This document shows positions 38,372 through 49,250 of a stretch of 64,000 bases of DNA, piece after piece. The notes beneath the pieces are model-generated. The model saw only the letters and a list, made by a program, of their open reading frames with translations. It was not told the DNA's origin and searched no databases. Source of the stretch: Pelagibacteraceae bacterium AG-430-I06 (GTDB lineage: Bacteria; Pseudomonadota; Alphaproteobacteria; Pelagibacterales; Pelagibacteraceae). Every line of letters begins with the position of its first letter. Position 1 is the first letter of the stretch. The translations under genes and the position numbers were made by a program. The stretch is from NCBI GenBank assembly GCA_003209895.1, contig QCOH01000005.1:1-64000 (forward strand), in the 5' to 3' direction.

Positions 38372-38448
38372 GGCGGGGTAGCTCAGTTGGTTAGAGCACA
38401 GGACTCATAAGCCTGGGGTCGGTGGTTCGAATCCACTCCCCGCTACCA
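38372..38448 (+). tRNA. tRNA with CAT anticodon (Met, possibly Ile2)
   Basis: A 77-base cloverleaf with encoded CCA: acceptor GGCGGGG/CCCCGCT (G1-U72 wobble), D arm GCTC/GAGC, anticodon stem CAGGA/GCCTG with loop CTCATAA, T arm GGTGG-TTCGAAT-CCACT. The anticodon is CAT. The acceptor and GCTACCA end resemble alphaproteobacterial elongator tRNA-Met, but a lysidine-modified tRNA-Ile2 also reads CAT and cannot be excluded by eye. The anticodon stem's closing pair (A31-G39) is a mismatch. Confidence 0.93.
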
Positions 38449-44644: not shown

Positions 44645-45172
44645 TTAGTGTCCGGGGAACTCTAAAAGACTTTCGGTAAAATAAGATTTGTTTTTTAAAT
44701 TTTGATCTCCACCAAGATCAAAAAGGTTGATAATAAAAATAAATCCTGCGACTTGTCCTTTAGAAATTTCTACTAATTTTGCTGCTGCTTCAGCCGTTCC
44801 TCCCGTTGCTATTAAATCATCAATAATCAAAACTTTCTCGTCTTTACTTATCGAGTCTTTGTGTACTTCTATTGTTGCCTTTCCATATTCTAATTCAAAG
44901 TCTACCGAATATCTTTCTGCTGGTAATTTGTTTTTTTTTCTCATCATCACCAGGGGTTTTTTCAACTTATAAGATACAGCTGAAGCAAAAACAAAACCCC
45001 TTGATTCTATTGCAGATATTTTATCAAACTTAATTTTTTTTGATATTTCTACAATTTTATCAATACTAAAATTAAATGCATCGGGATTTTTAATTAACGT
45101 GGTTATATCTCTAAATAAAATGCCTTTTTTAGGATAATCCGGGATTGATCTAATATATTTTTTTAAATTCAT
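44645..45172 (-). CDS. apt: adenine phosphoribosyltransferase
   Basis: Salvages adenine to AMP with PRPP. The 175-residue protein has 'IPDYPKKGILFRDIT', 'AIESRGFVFASAVSYKL' and the PRPP loop 'VLIIDDLIATGGTAEAA'. It is divergent from mtnP with 43 bases between start codons; MtnP releases adenine, so the pairing makes metabolic sense. Confidence 0.95.
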   Translation of the reverse strand: MNLKKYIRSIPDYPKKGILFRDITTLIKNPDAFNFSIDKIVEISKKIKFDKISAIESRGFVFASAVSYKLKKPLVMMRKKNKLPAERYSVDFELEYGKATIEVHKDSISKDEKVLIIDDLIATGGTAEAAAKLVEISKGQVAGFIFIINLFDLGGDQNLKNKSYFTESLLEFPGH

Positions 45173-45215: not shown

Positions 45216-46088
45216 ATGAAAAGCAGAAAGATTGGGATAATTGGTGGCAGTGGACTTTATAAAATGGAGGGTTTTGAAAAAACAAAGTGGAATAAAGTTA
45301 AAACTGCTTGGGGTCAACCCTCAGATGATGTCATGATAGCTACCTATAAAGGTATTGATGTTTTTTTTATTCCAAGACATTCTAGGGGCCACAAAATAAA
45401 CCCATCTAATATAAATTTTAGAGCTAATATTGATGCATTAAAACAATTAGGTGTTACAGATATTATATCTGTTTCAGCAGTTGGATCTTTAAAGGAAGAG
45501 CTTAGTCCTGGAACATTTGTAATAGTTAACCAATTTATTGACAGAACTTTTTTAAGAAACAAAACCTTCTTTGACCAAGAAATAGTTGCCCACGTTTCTA
45601 TGGCAAAACCAACGAGTGAAGGTCTGGGAAAATGTTGTGAAGCTGCATTAAAAAAATTAAATATTAATTATCAGATGGGAGGGACCTATGTCGTAATGGA
45701 AGGACCACAGTTTTCAACTTTAGCAGAGTCAAATTTATATAGATCGTGGAAAGCAGATGTAATAGGCATGACTAATATGCCAGAAGCAAAATTAGCAAGA
45801 GAAGCTGAAATACGATATTGCACAGTTGCAATGGTTACCGATTATGATTGCTGGCATTCCGAACACGATGAAGTCGATGTTGCAATGGTTATAAAAACTT
45901 TACAAAAAAATGCTGCAAATGCCCAAAATATGGTAAAGGAAGTCATAAAAACCTTTAAAGATTTTTCAGTTGATAAGGATCCTGCAAATAAATGTTTAGA
46001 TACATCAATAATTACTGACCCAAAACTTAGAACAAAAAAAACTATTAAAAAATTACAATACATCGCAGGAAGAGTCTTAAAAAAATAA
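45216..46088 (+). CDS. mtnP: S-methyl-5'-thioadenosine phosphorylase
   Basis: Splits methylthioadenosine with phosphate to adenine and methylthioribose-1-phosphate. The 290-residue protein has 'IGIIGGSGLYKMEGF', 'RHSRGHKINPSNINFRAN', 'VSAVGSL', 'YVVMEGPQFSTLAES' and 'IGMTNMPEAKLAREAEI', all PNP/MTAP-family II motifs. First gene of mtnP-mtnA-aldolase-speDE; its stop overlaps the mtnA start by one base. Confidence 0.95.
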   Translation: MKSRKIGIIGGSGLYKMEGFEKTKWNKVKTAWGQPSDDVMIATYKGIDVFFIPRHSRGHKINPSNINFRANIDALKQLGVTDIISVSAVGSLKEELSPGTFVIVNQFIDRTFLRNKTFFDQEIVAHVSMAKPTSEGLGKCCEAALKKLNINYQMGGTYVVMEGPQFSTLAESNLYRSWKADVIGMTNMPEAKLAREAEIRYCTVAMVTDYDCWHSEHDEVDVAMVIKTLQKNAANAQNMVKEVIKTFKDFSVDKDPANKCLDTSIITDPKLRTKKTIKKLQYIAGRVLKK

Positions 46089-47158
46089 TGCATATAAACG
46101 GTAAAGAACTAAGAACAATTTGGTTTGAAAATAGTACTGTCAAAATAATTGATCAAACAAAACTTCCTCATCAATTCATTATTAAAAATTTAAAAACTAT
46201 TGAAGATGCAATTAATGCTATTAAAACCATGGAAGTTCGAGGTGCACCATTAATAGGTGCCACAGCTGCTTATGGATTAGTACTATCTATAATTGAAAAG
46301 AATGATCAGTCGTTTCTTAAAAAAGCTAGCCAAGATTTAATTAAATCAAGACCAACTGCTATAAATTTAAAATGGGCAGTAGATAGAATGATGAAAAAAT
46401 TATCGGGAGTAAATAGTAAAGAAATTTTAAAAATAGCAATTGATGAAGCAAATAGTATTTGCGAAGAAGATATTAGTTTTTGTAAAAATATCGGTCTGAA
46501 TGGATTAAAAATAATTGAAGAAATTTATATGAAAAAAAAAGATACAGTAAACATTTTAACCCATTGTAATGCTGGATGGCTCGCTACAATCGATTGGGGT
46601 ACCGCTACCTCTCCAATCTATCATGCCCATCAAAAAGGAATTAAAGTTCATGTTTGGGTTGACGAAACAAGGCCACGAAATCAGGGTGCTAACTTAACAT
46701 CATACGAACTAAACGAGGAAGGTATATCAAATACCATAATTGCTGATAATACTGGAGGAATTTTAATGCAAAGAGGTGAAGTAGATATGTGTATTACTGG
46801 TACAGATAGAACTTTATCGACAGGCGATGTTGCAAATAAAGTTGGAACTTACCTTAAAGCTTTAGCAGCCTATGATAATAAAGTCCCTTTTTACGTTGCC
46901 TTACCAAGTTCAACAATCGATTGGAATTTAAAAAATTTTAAAGATATTCCCATAGAAGAAAGAAATTCAGAAGAGCTATCATATATAGAAGGCTTAGACA
47001 AAAATAACAAATTAACAAAAGTTCTAATTTATCCAAAAAAAAGCAAAGCTATGAACTTGGCGTTCGATATCACACCCGCTAAATATGTTACAGGGTTAAT
47101 AACTGAAAAAGGAGTTTGCGAGGCATCAAGTGAAGGATTAAAAAATTTATTTAAATGA
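46088..47158 (+). CDS. mtnA: methylthioribose-1-phosphate isomerase
   Basis: Converts methylthioribose-1-phosphate to methylthioribulose-1-phosphate. The 356-residue protein has 'MEVRGAPLIGATAAYG', catalytic Cys160 in 'LTHCNAGWLAT' and Asp240 in 'ITGTDRTLSTGDVANKVGTY', the same numbers as in the B. subtilis enzyme. Overlaps the aldolase gene by four bases. Confidence 0.95.
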   Translation: MHINGKELRTIWFENSTVKIIDQTKLPHQFIIKNLKTIEDAINAIKTMEVRGAPLIGATAAYGLVLSIIEKNDQSFLKKASQDLIKSRPTAINLKWAVDRMMKKLSGVNSKEILKIAIDEANSICEEDISFCKNIGLNGLKIIEEIYMKKKDTVNILTHCNAGWLATIDWGTATSPIYHAHQKGIKVHVWVDETRPRNQGANLTSYELNEEGISNTIIADNTGGILMQRGEVDMCITGTDRTLSTGDVANKVGTYLKALAAYDNKVPFYVALPSSTIDWNLKNFKDIPIEERNSEELSYIEGLDKNNKLTKVLIYPKKSKAMNLAFDITPAKYVTGLITEKGVCEASSEGLKNLFK

Positions 47159-47799
47159 AAAAATTAAGAATTCAAGTTATAAAATTTGCAAAAAAACTTA
47201 ATATTACTAATCTTTCAACTTTAAGATCAGGAAACGTTTCCGTAAGAGTAAAAGAAAAAAATATTAATGGATTTTACATTACTCCCTCTGGGGCAAAATA
47301 TTCATCATTAAAACCTAAAGATATCATTTTTGTTTCTCTAAAAGGTCGATTCGATAAAAATAAAGGAAAGCCTTCATCAGAATGGCGTTTCCATCAAGAT
47401 ATTTATGTGAATAAAAAAGATGCAAAAGCAATTGTTCATGCACACTCTACGTGTGCTACTGCAGTATCCACTCACAATATATCTGTTCCGGCTTTTCATT
47501 ACATGGTTGGAGTAGCAGGAGGAAATGACATAAAGTGCGCTAAATACGCTACTTTTGGTACAAGAAATTTATCGAAAAACATTATATCAGCTCTTAAAAA
47601 TAGATCTGCTTGTTTAATTTCAAACCATGGACAATTAGCTTTTGGAAAAAATTTAGATAGTGCTTTTGAGCTTGCCCAAGAGGTCGAAAATATTTGCCAT
47701 CAATATATAAATGCAATAAGAATTGGAATACCTAAAATACTTTCAAAAAAAGAAATGAAAATTGTTTTAGATAAAATGAAAAATTATAAAAGGGATTAA
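47155..47799 (+). CDS. class II aldolase, probable methylthioribulose-1-phosphate aldolase
   Basis: A 214-residue class II aldolase/adducin protein with Glu76 in 'PSSEWRFHQDIY', His95 and His97 in 'IVHAHST' and His158 in 'ISNHGQLAFG', matching the FucA zinc set (Glu73, His92, His94, His155) with a constant offset of three. Coupled to mtnA, it is either MtnB (dehydratase of the methionine salvage pathway) or the aldolase of the DHAP shunt, yielding dihydroxyacetone phosphate and methylthioacetaldehyde. No mtnC, mtnD or mtnE genes are nearby, which favours the aldolase. Confidence 0.8.
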   Translation: MKKLRIQVIKFAKKLNITNLSTLRSGNVSVRVKEKNINGFYITPSGAKYSSLKPKDIIFVSLKGRFDKNKGKPSSEWRFHQDIYVNKKDAKAIVHAHSTCATAVSTHNISVPAFHYMVGVAGGNDIKCAKYATFGTRNLSKNIISALKNRSACLISNHGQLAFGKNLDSAFELAQEVENICHQYINAIRIGIPKILSKKEMKIVLDKMKNYKRD

Positions 47800-47805
47800 T
47801 TTTTT

Positions 47806-48849
47806 ATGATAAAAGTTGGCGAACATATCACTTTAGACTTTTTAGGTGTAAGCAAAGATTATACACCTGAATTTTATGAAAAAATTTTTTATAAAATATC
47901 CAAGAAAGCAAAAGTAGAACTTTTGAAGATTTCCAGTCATCGTTTTGAACCACAAGGATTCACATCGGTAGCACTACTGTCAGAAAGTCACATGAGTTTT
48001 CATACTTTTCCGGAAAGAGGAGTGGTCAGTTTTGATTTCTTCACATGTGGTAAAATTTCACCTCGAGTAGCATTAGGAATATTAAAAAAAGAAATCGATC
48101 ATAAAAGAATAGTTGTAAATAGTTTTGACAGAAGTAGCGTTGCTCTAAAAGATGATATTTATAGTACACCGGGCCAAAAAAAATATTATGTGGTAAACGA
48201 TATTCTTGAGAAACTTGTATCAAAAGTAGGACAAAAGTTAGAAATTTTAAATTTAGAAGAATATGGAAATGCTCTTTTTATAGATAATGAGCTTCAAGTC
48301 GCAGAGAAGGATGAAAAACTTTATAGCTCTACATTTGTTAAATCAGGAATGGAATTATGCAAAAGAAGAGGTAACGCAGCAGTTATTGGAGGAGGAGATG
48401 GCGGAGTTGTTAGAGAATGTCTCCAAAATAATTTTAATTATATAGATTGGTTTGAACTTGACCCACAAGTTGTAGAAATTAGTTACAAACATCTTCCTAA
48501 AATAACTTCCCGAGTAAGAAAAAGTAATAAAGTAAATACATATTGGGGAGACGCTTTTAAAAGTATTAAAACAGTAGAGATATCTAAATACGACCAAATT
48601 TTTGTCGATCTAAACGACGATCAATATTGTATTGATCTAGCCAAAAGAAACATGAAAGGACTTAAACGAATTTTAAAGAAAGGTGGAGTAATTACAGCTC
48701 AAGTTGGATGTCGAGATAAAAAACCAACACAAGTGAAAAATTGGATGAAAGTTTTAAGTGATAGTTTTGGAAATGTTAAAATTCATGATATTTTTATACC
48801 AAGTTTTGATTGTAGATGGAACTTTGCATCTTCATTACACAAACAATAA
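47806..48849 (+). CDS. fused AdoMet decarboxylase and aminopropyltransferase (SpeD-SpeE)
   Basis: A 347-residue fusion. Residues about 1-115 are a class 1B AdoMet decarboxylase: self-cleavage and pyruvoyl site Glu60-Ser61 in 'SESHMSFHTFPE', with His66 and Cys81 ('FFTCG'), equivalent to Ser63, His68 and Cys83 of the Thermotoga enzyme. Residues about 140-347 are a spermidine-synthase-like domain with the AdoMet loop GGGDGG (195-200), 'FELDPQVVEI' and catalytic-type Asp268 in 'IFVDLNDD'. The usual YHE motif of spermidine synthases is 'LYSSTF' here. The chain could convert a diamine to a triamine; its methylthioadenosine product feeds the mtnP gene upstream. Confidence 0.88.
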   Translation: MIKVGEHITLDFLGVSKDYTPEFYEKIFYKISKKAKVELLKISSHRFEPQGFTSVALLSESHMSFHTFPERGVVSFDFFTCGKISPRVALGILKKEIDHKRIVVNSFDRSSVALKDDIYSTPGQKKYYVVNDILEKLVSKVGQKLEILNLEEYGNALFIDNELQVAEKDEKLYSSTFVKSGMELCKRRGNAAVIGGGDGGVVRECLQNNFNYIDWFELDPQVVEISYKHLPKITSRVRKSNKVNTYWGDAFKSIKTVEISKYDQIFVDLNDDQYCIDLAKRNMKGLKRILKKGGVITAQVGCRDKKPTQVKNWMKVLSDSFGNVKIHDIFIPSFDCRWNFASSLHKQ

Positions 48850-48860
48850 AGCCCAATAAA

Positions 48861-49250
48861 TCAGTATTTGGAATATTGTTTTATTTCTTTTATACTAGAT
48901 CCAGTAAGATGGTTTATCTTTGATTTAAGTTTTGATCTATTATCGTTAAGTTTGTAAACACTTCTTGCTAGCTCAATAAACTTTTCATTAAAAATTTTAT
49001 TTTTTTCAGCAAGTCTTATTTCATCCTCAACCTCCCATAATTTTAGATTAACTTCCTTTAAATTGTTCCACAAATTTTCGATTTCACTATTAATTTTTAA
49101 ATTTTCTTTAGCGGTCTGTTTTAAAAGTGTATATTCTTTATCTACAATTTCTAAACTTTTAGAGTCTGAAATTTTCTCTCTTTTGATTTCTAGAATCGTA
49201 ATTTTGTCAATTAATTCACCTGCTGAAGTTTGAATAAGAATTTTACTCAT
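48861..49250 (-). CDS. DUF6165-type coiled-coil protein
   Basis: A 129-residue mostly helical protein with the opening 'IQTSAGELIDKITILEIKREKI', which I associate with the DUF6165 family found near LPS glycosyltransferase genes, followed by heptad-rich helices. Function unknown. Divergent from a GT9 gene with 62 bases between the starts, consistent with a glycan role. Confidence 0.65.
   Translation of the reverse strand: MSKILIQTSAGELIDKITILEIKREKISDSKSLEIVDKEYTLLKQTAKENLKINSEIENLWNNLKEVNLKLWEVEDEIRLAEKNKIFNEKFIELARSVYKLNDNRSKLKSKINHLTGSSIKEIKQYSKY

Follow-up and report, generated by a model that had tools for sequence, protein, structure and literature searches.

The open reading frame at positions 47806..48849 (+) of the window, as we call the whole stretch of 64,000 nucleotides analysed here, very probably encodes a self-cleaving SAR11 fusion of AdoMet decarboxylase and aminopropyltransferase (speD-speE, in the following speDE), which makes spermidine and is joined to its own route for the disposal of methylthioadenosine (MTA). 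The window stems from a member of SAR11 (Pelagibacteraceae) with a genome of 0.92 Mb, estimated to be 78% complete, and the 80 loci closest to it all belong to SAR11, nearly all of them being titled Pelagibacteraceae or Pelagibacter. speDE starts with ATG at 47806 and its stop codon ends at 48849; judged by Pfam and NCBIfam matches, family copies and an AlphaFold model, its product of 347 residues is a SAR11 (Pelagibacteraceae) SpeD-SpeE fusion with both domains in one frame, exactly where an earlier note on this DNA had placed such a single chain. The same note had counted it among fusions known from bacteria, and indeed a Pelagibacter fusion was described by Green et al. (2011; cited in PMC8437039) and such fusions have since been assayed (PMC11107197). 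The window fusion is an ordinary, already characterised SAR11 enzyme and adds one more sequence to a known family. What the earlier note overlooked is the linkage of the fusion to MTA-disposal genes, for which no paper was found in the literature searched; a search for Pelagibacter and the DHAP shunt together also found none.

The N-terminal half was assigned as class 1B AdoMet decarboxylase domain (residues 7-109; 47824..48132, +) by Pfam AdoMet_dc (PF02675, E 3e-25) and by the NCBIfam class 1B decarboxylase model TIGR03330, which scored 90.7 bits at a cut-off of 75.65. Ser61, His66 and Cys81, from which the earlier note had read a complete class 1B decarboxylase, stand at the positions it gave and do not vary in any of the 110 aligned rows, which comprise 109 loci and the window itself, some loci sharing a genome. 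Given this conserved Ser/His/Cys set, the proenzyme should cleave itself at Ser61: cleavage predicted between Glu60 and Ser61 would leave a beta chain of 60 residues and an alpha chain of 287 residues, the N-terminal pyruvoyl group of which would decarboxylate AdoMet, an activity present in orthologues. As the earlier note had suggested, decarboxylated AdoMet may be handed on directly from this site to that of the transferase.

In the AlphaFold model (mean pLDDT 82.7, pTM 0.65) both domains fold, the weak stretches being residues 1-4 and 107-112. The rows of the structure alignment (VIA-align) cover mostly residues 106-347, and for the decarboxylase half we relied on its sequence and on the full-length match to human spermine synthase. 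This enzyme was the top Foldseek match and aligned over both domains (residues 5-347), with a high rmsd of 6.2-6.5, and therefore the relative placement of the two domains differs in the model. Animal spermine synthase (human 3c6k, 3c6m) has the same two-domain layout, with 18% identity over the aligned model, and is thought to be derived from a bacterial fusion of this kind, the decarboxylase half of which was later inactivated (PMC12803844). Whereas the N-terminal domain of the animal enzyme is without decarboxylase activity (PMC12803844), the window protein keeps Ser61, His66 and Cys81.

The transferase half (residues 119-341; 48160..48828, +) comprises the tetramerisation domain Spermine_synt_N (PF17284, residues 119-167, E 9e-6) and Spermine_synth (PF01564, residues 170-339, E 2e-22), both above cut-off, and Foldseek related the model to solved spermidine synthases with E of about 1e-20. 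Matches to the speE equivalog models (E 1e-34 to 1e-29) lie far under the cut-offs (TIGR00417 102.6 bits vs. 249.55; NF002010 119.2 vs. 260), and therefore the transferase half is divergent. Tyr173, Ser174, Asp198, Glu217, Asp249, Asp268, Asp271 and Phe334 are invariant. The atypical active site described in the earlier note, with LYSSTF in place of YHE, was borne out, since Y173-S174 occurs in all 110 rows, position 175 being Ser in 93 and Gly in 15. In the alignment to spermidine synthase (SpdS) of P. falciparum, Tyr173 corresponds to Tyr102, Ser174 to His103, Asp198 to Asp127, Asp268 to Asp196, Asp271 to Asp199 and Phe334 to Tyr264. Crystal structures of the P. falciparum enzyme show that His103, Asp127 and Asp196 hold the donor aminopropyl group, and that the near amine of putrescine is held by Tyr102 and Asp196 and its far amine by Asp199 (PMC4356361); in the human spermidine synthase, the role of base falls to the equivalent residue Asp173, and the amine is positioned by Tyr79 and Tyr241 (PMC12812037). 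All three putrescine contacts are kept as Tyr173, Asp268 and Asp271, and by alignment Asp268 would act as base and Asp271 would hold the far amine. Mapped in this way, the loss of YHE is a donor-side change, Ser174 standing where the His of the P. falciparum enzyme contacts the donor, decarboxylated AdoMet, while the acceptor-side changes are the invariant Phe334 and the altered gatekeeper loop, in which DDQYC (invariant or nearly so) replaces DPxGP.

Free-standing spermidine synthases (B. subtilis 1iy9, P. falciparum 2hte, human 2o05) have the fold and the catalytic Asp residues in common with the window protein, but in the latter both YHE and the DPxGP segment of the gatekeeper have given way to other residues, and a decarboxylase is fused. 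Among the closest folds were thermospermine synthase 6bq6 (Z 27.7) and the archaeal aminopropyltransferase 7xif of Pyrobaculum calidifontis (Z 28.9), which has DL-D and IPSF--NF segments in common with the window protein; motif 2 reads GGGDGG in the window protein as compared to GGGEGA given for thermospermine synthases (PMC11107197). Furthermore, single frames in two other Pseudomonadota (G250:C1:1227666-1228592 and G418:C1:2367436-2368365) align with the fusion over residues 37-341 or 45-341 at 23-27% identity and are possible independent fusions.

From the loss of YHE, the earlier note had supposed that the acceptor is perhaps not putrescine. It is unlikely that the transferase mainly uses another amine, be it 1,3-diaminopropane, spermidine or cadaverine, although its divergence from all speE equivalog models, the invariant Y-S, Phe334 in place of the amine-positioning Tyr and the altered gatekeeper loop would be in line with this, as would the norspermidine and tetraamines made by orthologues (PMC11107197). 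The supposition lost its ground in that the changed His is a donor contact, the putrescine contacts are retained and orthologues make spermidine in E. coli (PMC11107197). Moreover, the His of motif 1 was described as uninformative for specificity (PMC11107197). The fusions of Ca. Pelagibacter ubique HTCC1062 and Ca. Pelagibacter sp. HTCC7211, expressed in E. coli in 2024, gave spermidine in a speD deletion, their decarboxylase thus being active, as well as both spermine and thermospermine when speE was deleted, and converted 1,3-diaminopropane to norspermidine and putrescine to spermidine (PMC11107197). Both stem from the same family of bacteria as the window protein, with the same domain order and class 1B decarboxylase, and likewise are encoded by the single aminopropyltransferase gene of their genomes; no functional difference is known. 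The family-wide identity of 58-89% and the one copy per genome argue for orthology of the window protein to them. By analogy with the products measured in these orthologues, the specificity of the fusion transferase is probably broad and not shifted from putrescine; the changes at Phe334 and in the gatekeeper loop would be compatible with such a range. Spermidine synthesis remains our preferred reading: the aminopropyl group of decarboxylated AdoMet would be moved to putrescine and, going by the product range of the orthologues, further to spermidine. speDE is the sole aminopropyltransferase above cut-off in its own genome, where, at 78% completeness, a second one was not found, and a lysine/ornithine decarboxylase homologue encoded there would supply the diamine.

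Every aminopropyl transfer would release MTA, and the genes upstream of speDE are those for its disposal. Divergently from mtnP lies apt (44645..45172, -; TIGR01090 206 bits, above the cut-off of 185.85) for adenine phosphoribosyltransferase, and mtnP (S-methyl-5'-thioadenosine phosphorylase; 45216..46088, +; TIGR01694 319 bits, above 274.85) is followed by mtnA (S-methyl-5-thioribose-1-phosphate isomerase; 46088..47158, +; TIGR00512 412 bits, above 279) and by a gene for a FucA-like class II aldolase (47155..47799, +; PF00596), predicted from solved relatives and cluster position to be a 5-methylthioribulose-1-phosphate aldolase. mtnA and the aldolase gene overlap by 4 bp and the fusion starts 6 bp past the aldolase stop. 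The same gene order was found in most of the 80 closest loci, and nearly every locus has MTA genes next to the fusion. MtnP, MtnA and the aldolase would turn MTA into adenine, DHAP and methylthioacetaldehyde, and Apt would recover the adenine. Phosphorylase, isomerase and class II aldolase genes are clustered as in the mtnP/mtnA/ald2 form of the DHAP shunt (Rhodospirillum rubrum; E. coli form, PMC10986504), with the difference that the window cluster is joined to an MTA-making polyamine enzyme and that the role of its aldolase is predicted. Among solved structures, the aldolase is most closely related to FucA 1fua, followed by 6btd/6btg, which were deposited as fuculose phosphate aldolase; it reaches none of the NCBIfam equivalog cut-offs, and its substrate could be another sugar phosphate. 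On the other side of the fusion lie a gene for a DUF6165 protein (48861-49250, -), absent or unmatched in several close loci (e.g., L003-L007), and then glycosyltransferase genes. An RNA regulator near the locus was not found with Rfam, which yielded one tRNA only (38372-38445).

The slot beside the fusion is filled in three ways. Form A is the window arrangement of mtnP, mtnA, FucA-like class II aldolase and fusion, while in form B the FucA-like aldolase gives way to a divergent protein of the PRK08324 family, an aldolase-short-chain dehydrogenase (679 aa; L081 1503-3539 and L077 3882-5918, both -, beside the fusion). In form N, a small gene for a nucleosidase-like protein stands between apt and the fusion (L130 2269-2802, +; L131 3323-3844, -; L132 3241-3825, -, the last as open reading frame only), and the stretch read is without mtnP, mtnA and aldolase; the proteins of L130 and L131 match PF01048, below the cut-offs for MTA/SAH nucleosidase. 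In a set of 73 family genomes the fusion occurs in 59, and among these 30 have form A only, 24 form B only, one both and four neither, so that the two forms are almost mutually exclusive in fusion-bearing genomes. An A or B aldolase was found in 55/59 fusion genomes as compared to 2/14 fusion-less ones, all these counts ignoring relatedness. A tree of 29 fusion proteins has at least six changes of form, as compared to a mean of 11.2 after shuffling; slot form is clustered on the tree, yet repeatedly switched. That a class II aldolase stands beside mtnP and mtnA in two different arrangements speaks for its assignment as putative methylthioribulose-1-phosphate aldolase. Both aldolase types are beside the fusion in L002 and L083 (G001), a possible intermediate. 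In L122 (G002), L123 (G021) and L124 (G028), the aldolase is 90-93% like that of the window and the adjoining fusion only 66-68%, a mismatch which suggests recombination between the aldolase and fusion genes. Outside the family, apt, mtnP, mtnA and the aldolase-dehydrogenase gene stand in a row in genome G094 (locus L140), and the 8.5 kb read there contain no fusion. On balance, we lean towards the view that SAR11 encodes its polyamine enzyme together with MTA disposal and that lineages swapped the module (FucA-like aldolase, aldolase-dehydrogenase fusion or nucleosidase) while the speDE fusion was kept.

These neighbours bear on the direction of the reaction. According to the proposal of Noell et al., SAR11 SpeE would also run backwards, breaking down spermidine (PMC8437039). 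It is quite improbable that the enzyme largely runs in reverse in the cell and degrades spermidine and norspermidine taken up from outside, a proposal made for HTCC7211, even though HTCC7211 cells gained putrescine when fed with spermidine and the canonical spermidine-degrading genes were not found (PMC8437039). Reverse transfer uses up MTA, but the adjoining genes remove it, and across the family three unlike MTA-removing modules fill the slot; moreover, the authors themselves point out that bi-directional action of SpeE is not known from other cells (PMC8437039). Synthesis is preferred as the main direction because MTA is the product of the forward reaction and the substrate of the reverse one, and the MTA-removing neighbours weigh against the reverse reaction of Noell et al.

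The fusion was found in 71 of 90 Pelagibacteraceae genomes and is unbroken over nearly its full length in 68, the window's own included; it is interrupted in G071 and only partially matched in G086 and G089. No aminopropyltransferase match was obtained in three family genomes of genus g5 (G034, G047 and G055, 94-99% complete). Some other alphaproteobacteria have separate speD and speE, and in G143 the pair is adjacent on the same strand, which fits an origin of the fusion by joining of neighbouring genes. That the fusion is a product of misassembly or of accidental readthrough between two genes, with separate halves in close relatives as the earlier note had considered, has practically no chance of being correct: the existence of two separate adjacent genes in other alphaproteobacteria (G143) apart, no support for it was found, and there are 68 unbroken copies, many of which come from single-cell assemblies made independently, their residues staying invariant across a range of 58-89% identity. 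A viral origin was also rejected, as viral contigs were without match to the tested patterns and phage matches stayed below 60% identity, none reaching 80% query cover; the phage matches listed were decarboxylase-side ones in cyanophages.

Taken together, the neighbourhood of speDE offers a testable fate of MTA in one of the most abundant bacteria of the ocean. Its conserved MTA-removing genes bear on the claim that SAR11 reverses spermidine synthase, which would need MTA. If the linkage holds true, SAR11 would link polyamine synthesis to a DHAP shunt that runs aerobically, by which adenine and DHAP would be recovered and methylthioacetaldehyde would be lost or redirected.
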